Source: an uncultured Rhodospirillales bacterium (lineage in GTDB: Bacteria > Pseudomonadota > Alphaproteobacteria > Acetobacterales > Acetobacteraceae). From it: a DNA stretch of 64,000 bases. Made by a program: the position numbers and the translations under genes. This document shows positions 8,136 through 15,246 of the stretch, one piece after another (position 1 is the first letter of the stretch; each line of letters starts with the position of its first letter). Below the pieces are notes generated by a model. That model did not search any database and had not been told where the DNA came from. It was given only the letters and a program-made list of their open reading frames with translations. Where the stretch lies: assembly GCA_903835235.1 (NCBI GenBank), contig CAILMF010000001.1, positions 62,001 to 126,000 on the forward strand, in the 5' to 3' direction.

Positions 8136-9085
8136 TGCTGGATCGCGCGCTGGAGTTCCGCTTCCCGCTGGTCAGCGGCGCCGATGTGCGCGCGGCGCAG
8201 CAGGCGCTGGCCCGGGCCGGGGTGCTGGCCGGGGATGCCGATGGCATCTTCGGCCCGCGCACCCGGGACGCCGTGGCCGCCTGGCAGCAGCGCCGCGGAT
8301 TGCCGGCGGATGGCGTGCTGCGCCCGGCGCAATGGGCGGCGCTGCTGCCGGAGGCGCCGGCGGCACGGCCAACCCCCACGGATTGGCGCGCGGCGCTGGC
8401 GCCCTTCCTGCCGCGGCTGGCGGCGCCGCATGGCGCGCCCGTGGGGACGGCCTCTCGCCGCTGGAGCCTGACCCCGGCCGGCGTGCTGGTACTGGGCGAG
8501 GACGCGCCACGGCGGACCAGCGGCGCGCCCCGCACGGTGGCCGGCTGCTGGAACCGCCATGACGCCGCCTTCCAGGCCGCGGCGCAGCGCTTTGGCGTGC
8601 CGCTGGAGCTGCTGCTGGCCACCGCCTGCACCGAAAGCGGCGGCCGGGCCGACGCGGTGCGGCAGGAACCCGGCTATGTCAGCGACAGCGAGACCCCCGG
8701 CCGGGTCTCGCCGGGGTTGATGCAGACGCTGATCTCCACCGCCCGCGCCAGCCTGCATGACCCCACGCTGGACCGCGCCAGGCTGCTGGACCCGGCCTGC
8801 TCCATTGCCGCCGGCGCGGCGCTGATCCGCCAGCAGGCGGTGGCGGGGGCGCGGCCGACCGGCTTCGACCCGGTGCTGGTGGGCGTGGCCTACAATGCCG
8901 GCAGCCTGCGGCCGATGCCAGGGGGCGCCGATACCTGCCCCTGGGGGCTGGTGCAGACCAGGCGCGACGCCAACCATTGGCACGCCGATGCCTTCTGCGC
9001 CTTTTTCGGCGACGCGCTGGCGGTGCTGGCCGGAGACCCGCCGGCGGCGGCCACGCCCAGCTTCGCGGCGCTGCTGCGCGGCTGA
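8132..9085 (+). CDS. Peptidoglycan-binding and lytic transglycosylase-like protein without signal peptide
   Basis: 317 residues. A type-1 peptidoglycan-binding domain at about 12-70 (VRAAQQALARAGVLAG ... DGIFGPRTRDAVAAWQQRRGL) is followed after a linker by an SLT lysozyme-like domain at about 140-290, with the probable catalytic Glu in LLLATACTESGGRADAV, then SPGLMQTL and GVAYNAGS. The N-terminus MMLDRALEFRFPLV is not a secretion signal, so export or release would need another route. This architecture resembles phage endolysins, and the gene is third in an operon behind a membrane protein and a lipoprotein. The start overlaps the previous stop (ATGA). Confidence 0.8.
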   Translation: MMLDRALEFRFPLVSGADVRAAQQALARAGVLAGDADGIFGPRTRDAVAAWQQRRGLPADGVLRPAQWAALLPEAPAARPTPTDWRAALAPFLPRLAAPHGAPVGTASRRWSLTPAGVLVLGEDAPRRTSGAPRTVAGCWNRHDAAFQAAAQRFGVPLELLLATACTESGGRADAVRQEPGYVSDSETPGRVSPGLMQTLISTARASLHDPTLDRARLLDPACSIAAGAALIRQQAVAGARPTGFDPVLVGVAYNAGSLRPMPGGADTCPWGLVQTRRDANHWHADAFCAFFGDALAVLAGDPPAAATPSFAALLRG

Positions 9086-9210
9086 GCGGGCCAGGGGCGC
9101 GACGCCCGGGGACCAGGCGCGTCGGCCTGGGGGCCGCGCCGCATCGGTCGGTTGCCGCCCGCCGGGTCGCGCCAACCGCGGCATCACAGGCCCCGTCAGG
9201 CCGCCAGGCC

Positions 9211-9234
9211 CAGGGTCAGGGTCAGGGTCAGGGC
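9211..9234. repeat. Short CAGGGT tandem repeat
   Basis: Three perfect CAGGGT units plus one CAGGGC lie in the 371-bp gap between the transglycosylase and sdhC. The rest of 9086-9375 shows no gene that I can support. Confidence 0.7.
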
Positions 9235-9375
9235 CAAGTCCCGCGGGGTCGGCAGCTGGGTCGCCAGGTCCACCCGGCGGCCGAGCACCAACCCGCAGGG
9301 ACAGCGGCCGGCACGGCTAAAGGAATGTTTTCCTTGGTCACGGCACCATATCCCACCGCACCCGATCTCGTGCAA

Positions 9376-9403
9376 TTGACGCTCTCCCGTGGCGCACCAT
9401 AGA
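9376..9403 (+). promoter_or_regulatory. Candidate promoter of the sdh operon
   Basis: TTGACG at 9376-9381 is followed after 16 bp by CATAGA at 9398-9403. The -35 is good and the -10 is weak. It lies about 55 bp before the chosen sdhC start, in a locally AT-richer stretch. Confidence 0.4.
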
Positions 9404-9456
9404 AGGCAGTGCAATCAGGCGCGCAATGCGCGTCGCCGCGTTGGAGCATCGTTTTC

Positions 9457-9933
9457 ATGAGCATGCAGGATTCGCGCGAGGCGGCCATGATCGGCCGCCG
9501 CACGGATGGCACCACGGTCCGCCGGCCCCTCTCGCCGCACCTGCAGGTCTACGACATGATGCAGATGTCGAGCTTCAGCTCGATCCTGAACCGCATCACC
9601 GGCGTGGCCTGGTCGCTGGGCGTTGTACTGCTGGTCTGGTGGCTGGTGGCGCTGGCCATGGGCGAACCCGCCTATCAGACGGCGATGACCGCCATGTCCC
9701 ACCCGATCGGGCTGCTGGTGCTGGTCAGCATGACGGTGGCCGCCTGGTACCACACCCTGGCCGGCCTGCGGCACCTGAACTGGGATATCGGCCGCGGCTT
9801 CGAGATTCCGGCGATGTACCGCTCCGGCTGGGCGGTGTTCATCGGCACCGTGGTGCTCAGCGTGCTGACCTGGTTGCCTGCCATCCCCGGCGCGGTCGAG
9901 TGGATCGCCGCCCAGATCAACGCGAACAGCTGA
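9457..9933 (+). CDS. sdhC: Succinate dehydrogenase cytochrome b556 subunit
   Basis: Membrane anchor subunit of complex II, which helps bind heme b and ubiquinone. With the start at 9457 it has 158 residues. Seen: RPLSPHLQVYDMMQM, then the family signature SILNRITGV, three membrane helices, and WYHTLAGLRHLNWDIG, which carries the conserved heme-region histidines. In-frame ATGs also occur at 9463 and 9487. I favour 9457 for its GGAG site at 9443-9446, but 9487 is possible. sdhD follows after 7 bp. Confidence 0.93.
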   Translation: MSMQDSREAAMIGRRTDGTTVRRPLSPHLQVYDMMQMSSFSSILNRITGVAWSLGVVLLVWWLVALAMGEPAYQTAMTAMSHPIGLLVLVSMTVAAWYHTLAGLRHLNWDIGRGFEIPAMYRSGWAVFIGTVVLSVLTWLPAIPGAVEWIAAQINANS

Positions 9934-9940
9934 GGCGACC

Positions 9941-10339
9941 ATGGCCCAGAACCCCTCCGTCGATACCCTCCGCTCCCCGCTCGGCCGCGTGCGCGGCCTG
10001 GGCTCGGCCCGCGGCGGCACGCACCACTGGTTCATGCAGCGCGTCACCTCCGCCGCGCTGCTGCCGCTGACCATCTGGTTCGCGGTGAATGCCGTGTTCA
10101 CCCTGGCCGGCGCCAGCTACGAGGTTGCCGCCCAGTGGGTGGCGCAGCCCTGGAATGCGGTGCTGCTGCTGGCGCTGGTGCTGGCCACCTTCCACCATGT
10201 GGCCGCAGGGCTGCAGGTGGTGATCGAGGATTATGCCGCCAGCGAAGCAGGCAAGCTGGTTGGCATTCTGCTGGTCAAGGCCATCTGCTGGTTGCTCGCG
10301 CTGGCCTCGGTCCTGGCCGTGCTGCGCGTAGCGATCTGA
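9941..10339 (+). CDS. sdhD: Succinate dehydrogenase hydrophobic membrane anchor subunit
   Basis: 132-residue second membrane anchor of complex II. It opens with RSPLGRVRGLGSARGGTHHWFMQRVTSAALLPLT, shown here as the typical alphaproteobacterial RVRGLGSA...HHW block, and has three hydrophobic helices. HHVAAGLQVVIEDYA supplies the conserved His and Asp of the heme/quinone region. It lies between sdhC (7 bp upstream) and sdhA (85 bp downstream, across a hairpin). Confidence 0.93.
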   Translation: MAQNPSVDTLRSPLGRVRGLGSARGGTHHWFMQRVTSAALLPLTIWFAVNAVFTLAGASYEVAAQWVAQPWNAVLLLALVLATFHHVAAGLQVVIEDYAASEAGKLVGILLVKAICWLLALASVLAVLRVAI

Positions 10340-10352
10340 GTTTCGTGAAGAC

Positions 10353-10397
10353 GAGCAAGTTACCCCTCCCGGGCCTTCGCCCGTCCGGGGTTTGCTC
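10353..10397 (+). promoter_or_regulatory. Interrupted hairpin between sdhD and sdhA
   Basis: GAGCAA pairs with TTGCTC, ACCCC with GGGGT and CGGGC with GCCCG around a CTTC loop, separated by small internal loops. No T-run follows, so an mRNA processing or stability element is more likely than a terminator within the sdh operon. Confidence 0.45.
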
Positions 10398-10424
10398 TAG
10401 CCGGGTACAGGAAAGAGCCGCACG

Positions 10425-12236
10425 ATGAACGCCATCACCAGCCCGTCCCGGGGCGCCTACCGGATTGTCGACCATACCTACGACGTGGTCGTCGTCGGCG
10501 CCGGTGGCGCCGGGCTGCGCGCCACCTTCGGCATGGGCGCCGCCGGGCTGAAGACCGCCTGCATCACCAAGGTCTTCCCGACCCGCAGCCACACCGTCGC
10601 CGCCCAGGGTGGCGTCGGCGCCGCGCTGGGCAACATGGGCGAGGATGACTGGCGCTGGCACATGTACGACACCGTCAAGGGGTCGGACTGGCTCGGCGAC
10701 CAGGATGCCATCGAGTACATGTGCCGCGAGGCCGTGCCCTCGATCATCGAGCTGGAGCACTTCGGCGTTCCGTTCAGCCGGACCGAGGAAGGCAAGATCT
10801 ACCAGCGCCCCTTCGGCGGCCACATGACGCATTACGGCAAGGAGCCGGCGATGCGCGCCTGCGCCGCCGCCGACCGCACCGGCCACGCCATTCTGCACAC
10901 GCTCTACCAGCAGAGCCTGAAGCATAACTGCGAGTTCTTCGTCGAGTACATCGCGCTCGACCTGATCATGGACGACGAGGGCGTCTGCCGCGGCGTGACC
11001 GCCTGGTGCCTGGAAGACGGCAGCATGCACCGCTTCCGTGCCCAGCAGGTGGTGCTGGCCACCGGCGGCTATGGCCGCGCCTATTTCAGCTGCACCAGCG
11101 CCCATACCTGCACCGGCGACGGTGGTGGCATGGTGCTGCGCGCCGGCCTGCCGCTGCAGGACAACGAGTTCGTGCAGTTCCACCCCACGGGCATCTACGG
11201 CAGCGGCTGCCTGGTGACGGAAGGGGCCCGCGGCGAAGGCGGCTACCTGACCAACAGCCAGGGCGAGCGCTTCATGGAGCGCTATGCGCCGACGGCGAAG
11301 GACCTCGCCTCGCGCGACGTCGTTTCCCGCGCCATGTCGGTGGAAATCCGCGAAGGCCGCGGCGTCGGCCCGGACAAGGACCACATCTTCCTGCACCTGG
11401 AGCACCTGGGCGCGGCCATTCTGCATGAGCGCCTGCCTGGCATTTCCGAGACCGCGAAGATCTTCGCGGGCGTGGACGTGACCAAGGAGCCGATCCCGAT
11501 GCTGCCGACCGTCCACTACAACATGGGCGGCATCCCCACGAACCTGAACACCGAGGTTCTGGCCGCGACGGCCAAGGACCAGGACAAGGTGGTCCGCGGC
11601 CTGATGGCGGTGGGCGAGGCGGCCTGCGTCAGCGTGCACGGCGCCAACCGGCTGGGCACCAACTCGCTGCTCGATCTCGTGGTGTTCGGCCGCGCCGCCG
11701 CGCTGCGCGCCGCCGAGATCGTCAAGCCCGGCGCCAGCCAGCCGCCGCTGCAGGCCAATGCCGGGGAGAAGTCGCTGGACCGGTTCGACCGCGTGCGCAA
11801 CGCCCGCGGCAGCACCAGCGTGGCCGAGCTGCGCCTGACCATGCAGCGCACCATGCAGACCCATGCCGCGGTGTTCCGCACCACGGACCTGCTGAACGAA
11901 GGCGTGGCCAAGATGGACAAGGTCGCCGCCGGCTTCAGCGACATCAAGATTGCCGACCGCAGCCTGATCTGGAACAGCGACCTGGTGGAGGCGCTGGAGC
12001 TGGACAACCTGATCGGCAATGCGCTGACCACGATCCATGGCGCCCAGGCCCGCAAGGAAAGCCGCGGCGCCCATGCCCAGGAAGACTATCCGGACCGCGA
12101 CGACGTGAACTGGATGAAGCACACCCTGGCGCGGATGGACGACAATTACGGCATTTCGCTGGACTACCGCGACGTGAAGATGCGGACCCTCACCAATGAG
12201 GTCCAGGTCTTCCCGCCCAAGGCGCGCGTGTACTAG
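10425..12236 (+). CDS. sdhA: Succinate dehydrogenase flavoprotein subunit
   Basis: 603-residue FAD subunit that oxidises succinate to fumarate at the membrane. Dinucleotide motif [14 protein letters not shown] near 21-34. FAD is attached covalently at the His of [11 protein letters not shown] (His56). The substrate-site block [21 protein letters not shown] with its catalytic Arg, and the capping-region [21 protein letters not shown], are both intact. Length is normal. It is followed not directly by sdhB but by a 98-bp gap, vapD and then sdhB, which is unusual. Confidence 0.97.
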
Positions 12237-12334
12237 CCATGCGGACGCGCCCGGTTCGCACTGGCGAAAGCTTTTCGACGCCGGGCGCCAGCTTTGGTCT
12301 TGGGCACAACAGGCGTCCGCAAAGGGCACCCAGC

Positions 12335-12634
12335 ATGTTCGCAATCTCATTTGACATGGACACGACGGCCCTCCAGTCGGGCTATACTGGCCTGAGTTGG
12401 CAGAACGCCTACAGTGATATCCGGAAGGTGCTGGCGCGCCATGGCTTCGACCGCCAGCAGGGCAGTGTCTACTTTGGTGACGATTCCGTCGATTCAGTCA
12501 AATGCGTCATCGCAGTTCAGGACCTGACGAAATCATACCCTTGGTTCGGCCCGTGCGTTCGAGACATTCGCATGCTCCGAATCGAGGATAACAACGATCT
12601 GCGGCCCGCAATCGATGCGGTCAGCGGCTCCTAG
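12335..12634 (+). CDS. vapD: VapD-family endoribonuclease, lodged between sdhA and sdhB
   Basis: 99-residue protein of the VapD family, which has a Cas2-like ferredoxin fold and cleaves RNA in the characterised cases. [10 protein letters not shown] carries Asp7 and is followed by Leu13; [51 protein letters not shown] and NNDLRPAI are all family blocks. Asp7, Leu13, a Ser near 44 and an Asp near 77 match positions I recall as conserved in the Helicobacter protein. Upstream starts in the same frame (from 12239) add only non-homologous sequence. No VapX-like antitoxin is visible. The coding sequence is clearly less GC-rich than sdhA and sdhB, suggesting transfer. sdhB starts 16 bp after the stop. 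Confidence 0.9.
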
Positions 12635-12650
12635 CGGACGGACGCAAGCA

Positions 12651-13433
12651 ATGGCTGAATTCAAGCTTCCCGCGAACTCCACGATCCAGCGCGGCAAGAC
12701 CTTCAAGGCGGAAAAGGGCGCCAAGAAGGTCAAGTCGTTCAAGATCTACCGCTGGGACCCCGACACGGGCGAGAACCCGCGCAACGACACCTACGAACTC
12801 GATCTGGACAAGTGCGGTCCCATGGTTCTGGACGCGCTGATCAAGATCAAGAACGAGGTGGACACCACGCTGACCTTCCGGCGCTCCTGCCGCGAGGGCA
12901 TCTGTGGTTCCTGCGCCATGAACATCGACGGGCTGAACACGCTGGCCTGCCTGAAGCCGATCGACGACGTCTCCGGCGACGTCAAGATCAGCCCGCTGCC
13001 GCACATGCCCGTGGTGAAGGACCTGGTCCCCGACCTGAGCCAGATCTACGCGCAGCTGCGCAGCGTGGAGCCCTGGCTGCAGAGCGAGACGGCGGCGCCG
13101 CCGGATGAGGAGCGCCGCCAGTCCAAGGAAGAGCGCGCCAAGCTGGACGGGCTGTGGGAATGCATCCTGTGCTTCTGCTGCTCCACCAGCTGCCCGAGCT
13201 ATTGGTGGAACGGCGACCGCTACCTGGGCCCGGCCGTGCTGCTGCAGGCCTATCGCTGGATTGCGGATAGCCGCGACGAGGCGACCGGCAAGCGGCTGGA
13301 CGACCTGGAAGATCCGTTCCGGCTGTACCGCTGCCACACCATCATGAACTGCACCCGGACCTGCCCGAAGGGGCTGAACCCGGCGGCGGCGATCGGCAAG
13401 ATCAAGCAGATGATGGTCGAGCGGCAGGGCTGA
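12651..13433 (+). CDS. sdhB: Succinate dehydrogenase iron-sulfur subunit
   Basis: 260-residue subunit carrying the three Fe-S clusters that pass electrons from FAD to quinone. The plant-type [2Fe-2S] site is [15 protein letters not shown]...C. The C-terminal ferredoxin domain has [16 protein letters not shown] and [17 protein letters not shown] for the [4Fe-4S] and [3Fe-4S] clusters. The ATG at 12651 is preferred to the in-frame start at 12615 because homology begins MAEFKLP. It depends on read-through across vapD unless vapD carries its own promoter. Confidence 0.97.
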
Positions 13434-13530
13434 TTTTTTGCCCTCAAACGCCGGGCGCGCGCTCCGCGCGCTTGGCTTGCACCGCATAAGCGGCGACGCG
13501 CATTCGCGCTTGCGGCCCTAAAGGGCCGGT
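13434..13530. repeat. Intergenic dispersed element, copy 1
   Basis: Directly after sdhB comes a T-run, then a CGCCGGGCGCGCGC core with a 7-bp GC stem (13455-13471), then CGGCCC-TAAA-GGGCCG (13513-13528). The T-run plus core recurs after the oxygenase gene at about 28717-28766, so it looks like a family of post-gene elements in this genome. Confidence 0.5.
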
Positions 13531-13592
13531 GGCGCTGCCCGCCTAACCGCGCACCCCGCCGCGCAGCGGCTGGGGTGCCAAAAGTAAAAGGG

Positions 13593-13622
13593 CCCGCCAG
13601 GCGCAAGCTTGGCGGGTTTTTT
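13593..13622 (+). terminator. Rho-independent terminator of the sdh operon
   Basis: CCCGCCA (13593-13599) pairs with TGGCGGG (13610-13616) and is followed by six T. It is 160 bp beyond sdhB and 50 bp before the next gene. Confidence 0.85.
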
Positions 13623-13671
13623 CGTGCGCGCTTGTGGCTATGCTGCCGGGAAAGCACCGGGAACACTGTCC

Positions 13672-15246
13672 ATGCGCCTTGCCGCCCTTGCCCTGTTGAT
13701 GCTCGCGCCGCTTTCGGCCTCGGCGCAGGTGCTGACCATCGGCAATGCGTCCGTGGTGACCAGCCTGGACCCGCACTGGCACAACATGGTGCCGAACAAC
13801 GCCACGGCGATGCACCTCTTCGACCGGCTGGTGGAGCGCGATGCTCTCGCAAAACCCTACCCTTCCCTGGCGGAGAGCTATCGCGCGGTGAGTGACACCG
13901 AGTGGGAGTTCAAGCTGCGCCGCGGGGTGAAGTGGCATGACGGCCGCGACTTCACGGCCGACGACGTGGTCTTCACCTTCGGCCGAGTGCCCACGGTGGC
14001 GAACAGCCCGGGCGGGTTCTTCGGCTATCTCCGCGCCATCAGCCGGGTGGAGGTGCTGGACCCGCACACGCTGCGCATCCACACCCACCAGCCGCACCCG
14101 CTGCTGCCGCTGGACCTGGCCTCGGTCGGCATCATCAGCCGGCACGCGGCGACAGGCGCCAACCCGGAAGACTTCAACAGCGGCCGCGCGGCCATCGGCA
14201 CCGGGCCGTTCAGGCTGGTGGCCTACCGCAGCGGCGAGGGCGTGGAACTGGCGCGGCACCAGGCGGATTGGCGGCCGACGCCGTGGAGCCAGGTGAAGAT
14301 CCGCTTCATGACCAACGATGCCGGGCGGACGGCGGCGCTGCTTTCGGGCGATGTCGACATCATCGAGCAGATCGCCACCTCCGACATCGCGCGGCTGCGG
14401 CGGGAGCCACGGGTGGTGGTGACGCAGGTGCCGAGCGTGCGGACGGTGTTCCTCTCGCCCGATTATTCGCGCCAAGGCCCGGTGCCGGGGGTGACGGACA
14501 ATGCCGGCCAGCCGCTGCCACGCAATCCGTTCCTGGATGAGCGGGTGCGGCGGGCGCTGTCGCTGGCGATCAACCGCGACCTGCTGGTGGACCGGGTGAT
14601 GGAGGGCGCCGCCGTGGCCACGGCGCAATGGCTGCCTGAGGGCGCCTTCGGCTTCAACCCCGCGGTGCGGCCGCAGCGCTTCGACCCCGACCAGGCCAAG
14701 CGGCTGCTGGCGGAGGCCGGCTTCCCCGAGGGGTTCCGCCTCACGCTCTCCTCCCCCAATGACCGCTGGCCGAATGATGCGCGGCTCAGCCAGGCGGTGG
14801 CGCAGATGTGGGCGCGCGTGGGGGTGAAGACGCAGGTGGAGGCGCTGCCCTTCGCCGCGTTCGTGCCGCGCCGAACCCGGCAGGAATTCGGCATGCAGCT
14901 GGGCGCCTGGGGCAGTTCCACCGGCGAGGGGAGCAACTACCTGCTCAGCATTGTCTCGACCTATGATCGGGAGAAGCTGACCGGCGCCGGCAACATGACG
15001 CGGCATTCCGACCCGGTGCTGGACCGGTTGCTGGTGCGCGGCGCGGCGACCATGGACGACCAGGCGCGCGAGCGGACCTGGCACGAGGCGGTGACCTACT
15101 ACGCCCAGCACGAGCCGATGATCCAGCTGGTGCAGTACGTGAACATGTGGGCGGTGCGGCGCGGCCTGACGCATCAGCCGCGGATGGATGAGCGCACCGT
15201 GGCGATGGGCGTGGCGCAGGACATGCCGACGATGCCGGCGCGGTAG
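13672..15246 (+). CDS. ABC transporter substrate-binding protein, family 5 (peptide/nickel/opine type)
   Basis: 524-residue secreted receptor. A signal peptide of about 19 residues (MRLAALALLMLAPLSASAQ) is followed by the family-5 layout: LTIGNASVVTSLDPHWHNMV, the signature YPSLAESYRAVSDTEWEFKL then RRGVKWHDGRDFTADDVVFTF, IGTGPFRLVAYRSGEGVEL, and VRRALSLAINRDLLVDRVM. Length and order are normal. The ligand could be a peptide or another solute and cannot be told. No permease or ATPase genes follow, so it is an orphan. The ATG at 13672 begins the signal peptide; upstream in-frame codons run through the sdh terminator. Confidence 0.9.
   Translation: MRLAALALLMLAPLSASAQVLTIGNASVVTSLDPHWHNMVPNNATAMHLFDRLVERDALAKPYPSLAESYRAVSDTEWEFKLRRGVKWHDGRDFTADDVVFTFGRVPTVANSPGGFFGYLRAISRVEVLDPHTLRIHTHQPHPLLPLDLASVGIISRHAATGANPEDFNSGRAAIGTGPFRLVAYRSGEGVELARHQADWRPTPWSQVKIRFMTNDAGRTAALLSGDVDIIEQIATSDIARLRREPRVVVTQVPSVRTVFLSPDYSRQGPVPGVTDNAGQPLPRNPFLDERVRRALSLAINRDLLVDRVMEGAAVATAQWLPEGAFGFNPAVRPQRFDPDQAKRLLAEAGFPEGFRLTLSSPNDRWPNDARLSQAVAQMWARVGVKTQVEALPFAAFVPRRTRQEFGMQLGAWGSSTGEGSNYLLSIVSTYDREKLTGAGNMTRHSDPVLDRLLVRGAATMDDQARERTWHEAVTYYAQHEPMIQLVQYVNMWAVRRGLTHQPRMDERTVAMGVAQDMPTMPAR

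Follow-up and report, generated by a model that had tools for sequence, protein, structure and literature searches.

A vapD gene between sdhA and sdhB

The window analysed here, a 64,000-nt stretch of DNA from an uncultured Rhodospirillales bacterium, contains a succinate dehydrogenase operon for which open reading frames and profile matches give the forward-strand order sdhC, sdhD, sdhA, vapD, sdhB (Table 1). The two membrane-subunit genes (9409..10339) match Pfam Sdh_cyt and the NCBIfam models TIGR02970 and TIGR02968, all above cut-off, and an intact VapD-family gene occupies the sdhA-sdhB junction on the same strand, as an initial annotation of the sequence had proposed. The upstream ATG of vapD lies 2 nt past the sdhA stop codon, and two other loci (L010 and L011) share both this spacing and the 131-codon length of the frame, of which residues 33-131 (12335-12631) constitute the VapD match. 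We detected no promoter-like site in the leader before the VapD core with a sigma-70 pattern, which fits alphaproteobacterial promoters poorly, and this, together with the 2-nt and 16-nt gaps to the flanking genes, suggests that vapD is likely co-transcribed with sdh. A terminator-like hairpin with a short T run lies at 10367-10390, between sdhD and sdhA, and positions 9000-13700 hold 3 terminator-like hairpins vs 2.0 expected by shuffling.

Table 1. Coordinates of the sdh genes and of the elements of vapD in the window
Feature	Position	Strand	Remarks
sdhC	9409-9933 (open frame)	+	membrane subunit of succinate dehydrogenase; start codon unsettled
sdhD	9941-10339	+	membrane subunit of succinate dehydrogenase
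sdhA	10425-12236	+	flavoprotein subunit; stop codon 12234-12236; TIGR01816, 980 bits
vapD, long form	12239-12634	+	131 codons, ATG
N-terminal tail of long form	12239-12334	+	32 codons
G-H-N codons of G[HD]N motif	12302-12310	+	residues 22-24
Shine-Dalgarno-like AAAGGG	12321-12326	+	before internal start; weak, -3.7 kcal/mol, unexceptional for the genome
VapD core / predicted short form	12335-12634	+	99 codons from internal ATG
Asp7 codon	12353-12355	+	in VapD core
Ser44 codon	12464-12466	+	in VapD core
vapD-sdhB spacer	12635-12650	+	16 nt; carries sdhB ribosome site, -5.7 kcal/mol
sdhB	12651-13433	+	iron-sulfur subunit; NF004616, 371.6 bits

A divergent VapD with no antitoxin next door

Profile, sequence and fold searches all return VapD, which upholds the family call of the initial annotation. 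The protein matches NCBIfam VapD with E=5e-17 and 62.1 bits, below the 100-bit cut-off of the VapD equivalog NF041506, and the relatives at L025, L021 and L004 also stay below it (68.6, 58.9 and 63.4 bits); by these scores the window VapD belongs to a divergent branch outside the equivalog. In phmmer it matches the VapD structure 5dyr with E=2.2e-16, as well as the VapDs 6zn8 and 3ui3. Searches with the predicted model likewise recover the VapD fold, with 9/9 Foldseek matches at E<=0.001 being VapD or VapD-complex entries and VIA giving Z scores of 11.8 to both 3ui3 and 6zn8 and 10.7 to chain B of the VapD-VapW complex 9kan. Pfam Cas2 (PF09827) is matched at 24.9 bits, just above its cut-off of 23.8; the Cas2 model TIGR01573 scores 15.3 bits, under its cut-off of 24.5, and the immediate neighbours are sdh genes.

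Asp7 is conserved in the window VapD, as had been noted, and S44 aligns in phmmer with the Ser in the QGS of H. influenzae VapD, numbered S43 in that protein. Across the aligned rows the active-site Asp is present in 26/27 and the Ser in 27/27; the slot vapD of an Ahrensia MAG (L029:4959-5315) has Asn at the D7 position (FNLD) and may be catalytically dead, a D7N mutant of H. influenzae VapD having been crystallised (6zi1). Asp and Ser are both described as catalytic in VapD in the available text of PMC11980593.

The absence of an adjoining antitoxin gene, also claimed initially, was borne out, the same-strand neighbours being sdhA and sdhB in the position where VapXD, VapYD and VapWD systems carry a cognate antitoxin. 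Nor did we find a second, VapW-like protein, as the genome holds a single VapD-like match at E<=0.01.

An in-frame tail and two start sites

The 98 bp before the VapD ATG had been suspected to hold a promoter or an insertion border, a suggestion for which we found no support: the segment looks like translated sequence, an N-terminal tail that includes a G[HD]N motif in the VapD frame. When that frame was searched, 32 distinct alphaproteobacterial loci proved to have the motif 9-12 codons ahead of the core (counts of 32 omit L012, on the same contig as L002). G22 and N24 are invariant in 27/27 aligned rows, while third positions vary freely, with all four codons used for Gly and both codons of His/Asp and of Asn used about evenly. 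Except around G-H-N, the window tail is fast evolving, and confidence in its model is low (mean pLDDT 48-56 for residues 1-30). The motif is missing from the alphaproteobacterial loci L003, L004, L005, L006, L034, L044, L188 and L192, among them four slot members that have no tail (L003, L004, L188 and L192), and is decayed in L187. Among the best 80 of 95 relatives in our genome scan (described below), no non-alphaproteobacterial locus had G[HD]N in the VapD frame.

The start of the core is conserved as well, being ATG in 22 of the 32 loci, GTG in 6 and GTG one codon earlier in 4. Ahead of this internal start, 23/32 loci have a ribosome site of <=-5 kcal/mol, compared with 14% of control positions, and 20/32 have one ahead of the best upstream start. 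Arginine is encoded by AGG or AGA in 32/67 cases in the linker, 25/241 in the core and 9/54 upstream of G[HD]N. We repeated the start-site test on 18 further loci, which replicate that test and not the motif, since all except L100 were picked for having a tail; L187, L188 and L192 were left out for want of an intact tail. In this set an internal start codon was present in 17/18 and an internal ribosome site in 16/18 (19% of controls), the upstream start had a ribosome site in 15/18, and AGR codons made up 21/38 linker and 24/154 core arginines. In these tests related sequences are counted as independent observations, and the figures are only indicative. In-frame conservation of the tail implies that the long form is translated, and the kept internal start site that the short form is translated too, so that the gene probably makes both a long and a short VapD. 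Across loci the two in-frame starts thus appear to be under selection; in the window itself the ribosome sites are weak, the internal one lying at the 29th percentile of its own controls and the one at the upstream ATG reaching -2.6 kcal/mol, and the upstream start there may, we infer, depend on its coupling with the sdhA stop.

Two other readings of this segment were tried and set aside. For an RNA element in the leader there was no Rfam match, and the stable fold of the window leader (z -2.4) has no counterpart in L010 or L011 (z 0.4 and 0.3). The motif as a general alphaproteobacterial N-terminal tag, an idea prompted by GapR, was rejected: GapR of the window's genome lacks it. In the loci examined, 33/35 matches to GHN[SRT] near the start of an open reading frame were VapDs, duplicates included, and a DNA-pattern search of the window's own genome, with a pattern that left out TCN serine codons, returned 21 places of which only the VapD frame looked by eye like a real tailed protein.

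The sdhA|sdhB junction as a recurrent address

We scanned one genome per species for VapD relatives, with patterns taken from the window protein that favour close relatives, and considered the best 80 of 95. Record titles assign 35 of these 80 loci to the Alphaproteobacteria (for L032 the name Bosea does so), and in 29/35 vapD touches sdhA, sdhB or both in the proper order (both in 22, sdhA only in 4, sdhB only in 3); those away from sdh are L018, L027, L034, L044, L050 and L056. With the window's Sdh proteins as queries at E<=1e-10, the other 45 of the best 80 loci, which come from other groups, showed no contact with sdh, although strongly diverged sdh genes and contig ends could escape such a search.

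Family samples, which are less biased than the pattern-based scan, gave a similar picture in two families. In the family of a Shinella genome (Rhizobiaceae by record titles), 21 of 394 genomes had a match and 21/21 places lay behind sdhA, 18/21 within 105 nt of it and 3/21 with another gene between, and 14/21 ended <=14 nt before sdhB or overlapped its ATG; 6/21 were already in the genome scan and 15/21 were additional. In the family of a Rhodobacter MAG, 7 of 394 genomes had a match, 6/7 in the slot (L191 judged from the sdhB side only; 3/6 already in the scan, 3/6 additional), the seventh being an ordinary VapD of 39% identity outside it. In the window's own family (200 genomes), 8 genomes gave 9 places, of which 4 occupy the slot (G000, G078, G199 and G175) and 5 lie elsewhere. 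The slot is not universal, since in a class-wide sample of 385 genomes only 2/7 strong matches (>100 bits) occupied it (G000 and G446), one of these two being the window's own genome. Elsewhere in that sample, vapD lay between genes read by eye as tpiA and secG (G470) or at other places (G460, and a tail-less type in G040). Truncated copies sit beside an ABC-F-like ATPase gene, so named by eye, in G458 and G233. We conclude that vapD in the sdhA|sdhB junction is a recurrent arrangement at one address, extending beyond one odd genome, and not a product of chance, because the same junction holds VapD in many other Alphaproteobacteria.

Other junctions occasionally carry the tailed type. At L099:1137-2702 a G[HD]N-type vapD lies on the same strand between apparent tpiA and secG genes (by eye), a second operon junction, and in a Sphingomonadaceae MAG (L027:2316-3671) one lies 9 nt after an apparent Sua5/TsaC-type gene (by eye). 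The sdh slot in turn holds other cargo, namely a PIN toxin paired with an RHH protein (FitA-like, below cut-off) at L181, a methyltransferase at L043 and, between sdhA and vapD, a DUF433 gene at L024:4722-4934 (82.4 bits); 6/10 extra slot genes tested match no Pfam family.

Where vapD ends within 60 nt of sdhB (n=31 loci), the stop-to-start distance is -1 to 30 nt, with the overlapping value of -1 in 8/31. The median sdhB ribosome site is -4.2 in slot loci (n=31) vs -5.5 in vapD-free loci (n=30; p=0.04), a difference from which we draw nothing because the vapD-free set consists mostly of the window's own relatives.

Relatives of the window VapD are also found on mobile DNA, in 110 plasmid records, 2 phage records and 9 viral contigs. 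A phage or plasmid origin, considered on these grounds, was set aside; the tail was looked for in the viral-contig proteins, and 0/9 have it. One of the viral contigs (L162:2062-2349) carries a tail-less VapD opposite in strand to neighbouring genes that look phage-like by eye.

Empty sites, inheritance and exchange

Within the genus, vapD is present in 1/6 genomes, that of the window. In the other 5/5 congeners sdhA and sdhB adjoin with 18-31 nt from stop to start and no vapD, and one of these (G200) has two sdhA-sdhB junctions on different contigs (L095 and L096), neither with the gene. The comparison with sister genomes that had been called for thus finds that vapD is not genus-wide. It was likewise not found at the sdhA-sdhB junction in 24 further relatives (L113-L136). 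Two vapD-free junctions have features of their own: L119:483-1501, from the window's family, holds 1 kb with two open reading frames that match no Pfam family, and the ~120-nt spacer of L125 contains a long palindrome and looks as though it had received a small repeat element. Compared with its sisters, the window shows no replaced tract in the sdhA and sdhB flanks, which are ~81-99% identical per 120-nt bin up to the slot, and we found no insertion border or target-site repeat around vapD. The data fit both of two histories: the gene may have been gained in the window's lineage or lost in its sisters.

The observation that vapD is less GC-rich than its neighbours holds, the 99-codon core having a GC of 0.569 and GC3 of 0.707 vs GC of 0.68 for sdhA and 0.65 for sdhB and GC3 of 0.93 for each. 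Judged by composition across loci, this low GC is no mark of recent import here, because the GC3 of vapD lies below that of its own sdhA in 30/30 slot loci and rises with it (rho 0.62). Between the window and L010 the core has a dN of 0.087 and a dS that is saturated and not computable, with 57/76 differences at third positions, and comparison with two Roseomonas MAGs indicates strong purifying selection on the core, the gene being intact in the window's genome. Decayed copies occur in the slot (L187) and outside it (L101 and L103), from which we take vapD to be dispensable.

To compare histories we used 38 slot loci with both Sdh proteins, dropping ten duplicate loci and leaving out loci with truncated VapD. 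The VapD tree and the SdhA+SdhB tree have 4/35 splits in common. The Sdh topology is rejected on the VapD data (delta lnL 348, AU p=6e-5; LG+G4, 102 columns), as is the VapD topology on the SdhB data (delta lnL 485); on the VapD data the Sdh topology nonetheless outperforms 8 relabelled controls by a wide margin (delta lnL 1153-1286). Being rejected and yet far better than relabelled trees, the Sdh topology points to both processes, and these sequence comparisons indicate that vapD has been exchanged as well as inherited, at one address.

How much of this history is vertical can be gauged from several observations that are expected if vapD belonged to the ancestral alphaproteobacterial sdh operon and was lost many times, neither exchanged nor tied to a special address. 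The grouping of VapD clades agrees in part with orders; VapD identity correlates with SdhB identity (rho 0.46 over 28 loci, 0.55 over 25 with L003, L004 and L100 dropped), so that simple descent and loss may account for much of the history; GC3 follows the host; and the advantage of the Sdh topology over relabelled trees and the undisturbed flanks of the window agree with such a course. As a full account we nevertheless consider it unlikely, as the Sdh topology is still rejected for VapD and few splits are common, L035 and L175 differ in VapD type although they are sisters in the Sdh tree, and slot presence in 4/200, 21/394 and 6/394 genomes would need very many losses.

One locus preserves what looks like a recombination junction. 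Behind vapD in L181, the first 64 nt of sdhB (one mismatch) run into a 21-nt 3′ end of sdhA (one mismatch), the two stretches overlapping by 10 nt, and are followed by an RHH-PIN toxin-antitoxin-like pair and then by whole sdhB. The pair (VapBC/FitAB-like; L181:1833-2685) is bounded by this chimeric sdhB-5′/sdhA-3′ stretch and by a 68-nt direct repeat of the sdhB start. The simplest reading would be recombination at a short shared stretch between an sdhA-cargo-sdhB donor and a resident vapD-sdhB allele. The relic concerns the second cargo, the RHH-PIN pair, and not vapD, and no other listed locus has an sdhB-5′/sdhA-3′ relic of this kind.

Discussion

We think it rather more probable than otherwise that the window carries a stand-alone VapD-type nuclease gene for which the alphaproteobacterial sdhA|sdhB junction is the main address, coupled to sdh, provided with two starts, inherited as well as exchanged, and encoding a self-restrained effector. 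On this model vapD would be transcribed with sdhCDAB and translated in a chain sdhA-vapD-sdhB, as the 2-nt and 16-nt gaps and the stop/start overlaps elsewhere suggest. Sequence signatures across relatives predict that the upstream start gives a tailed form with G[HD]N and the conserved internal start a bare nuclease core. The gene would be neither a permanent core gene nor free-roaming cargo, being missing in most genomes and partly inherited, and would change hands between lineages at this one junction, with recombination in the flanking sdhA and sdhB as a plausible means. The product of the gene could cut RNA or DNA as an effector in stress or against invaders, made in amounts that track sdh expression, with toxicity curbed by the tailed form or by the balance of long to short product and not by a neighbouring VapX, VapY or VapW. 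We put forward the tail and the two-start layout as candidates for this restraint because a toxin placed there must be restrained and nothing else was found.

Comparison with known systems places this gene among solitary VapDs. With the toxins of VapXD, VapYD and VapWD (H. influenzae, Muribaculum and C. jejuni) the window VapD shares the fold and the catalytic Asp and Ser; unlike them, it has no adjacent antitoxin, carries a G[HD]N tail and an internal start, and sits in sdh. The VapDs of H. pylori (HP0315) and X. fastidiosa are solitary like that of the window, and RNase activity is reported for them; the X. fastidiosa protein cuts RNA in reported assays (available text of PMC4687846), and the H. 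pylori gene is described as stand-alone in the portion of PMC11980593 available. The same portion of that 2025 census reports that about half of VapDs have no association to specific proteins and that the VapDs of newly described toxin-antitoxin pairs induce SOS, and the words ‘succinate’, ‘alphaproteobacteria’ and ‘operon’ are absent from its main text. Cas2 shares the ferredoxin-like nuclease fold, with PF09827 just over cut-off, but the neighbours differ, being sdh genes here. The closest parallel for the two starts is offered by the Rpn nucleases, gene-within-gene toxin-antitoxin systems with an internal start in one frame (available text of PMC10327210), which like vapD, where this is predicted, give two products of a nuclease frame. 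The short Rpn product is a C-terminal domain that blocks the full-length toxin (same source, in part), whereas the short VapD would comprise the entire catalytic core, the tail being what the long form adds. A literature search over titles and abstract openings, with subscription papers mostly outside its range, returned no report of vapD between sdhA and sdhB; the only paper found to name vapD, sdhA and sdhB together, PMC3032703, gives vapD on a plasmid and the sdh genes on the chromosome, as separate entries.

Apart from the purely vertical history weighed above, two further explanations deserve mention. VapD might instead be an operon regulator that cuts or binds sdh mRNA in cis and tunes SdhA:SdhB output, with no role as a toxin, an idea to which the stop/start overlaps with sdhB and the RNase activity reported for the X. 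fastidiosa and H. pylori VapDs (PMC4687846, in part) lend some appeal; we judge it improbable, since vapD is rare, patchy and missing from the sdh operon of the nearest relatives, a tailed relative lies between apparent tpiA and secG (L099), and tail-less relatives occur on plasmids and viral contigs. Least probable is that, as the initial annotation suggested, a stray toxin gene landed in sdh recently and by chance in this genome alone, a view which the 5/5 vapD-free congeners and the lower GC had seemed to favour and which, as to the arrangement, is already contradicted by L010 and L011, with their same slot, 2-nt spacing, 131 codons and saturated synonymous divergence, and by the many other slot loci.

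Returning to the stand-alone, self-restrained VapD, a bolder version of that model can be proposed tentatively, and we regard it as possible though doubtful: the sdhA|sdhB junction would be a docking site for small cargos of toxin or defence genes, which move between operons by recombination in their sdhA and sdhB flanks, its main tenant being a self-contained VapD module whose single frame would yield both a nuclease, from the internal start, and its own tailed restrainer, from the upstream start with G[HD]N. If this were true, no separate antitoxin would be needed, and the VapD module could not be silenced without silencing respiration. For partnerless VapDs in general, a tail and a second start inside one gene offer a concrete candidate for how the nuclease may be kept harmless. 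The gene itself is rare and appears to be exchanged, and yet within a core respiratory operon it mostly holds to a single junction; with vapD-free junctions in sister genomes and an apparent recombination junction preserved in one locus, the keeping of an address by flanking operon genes is open to direct study.
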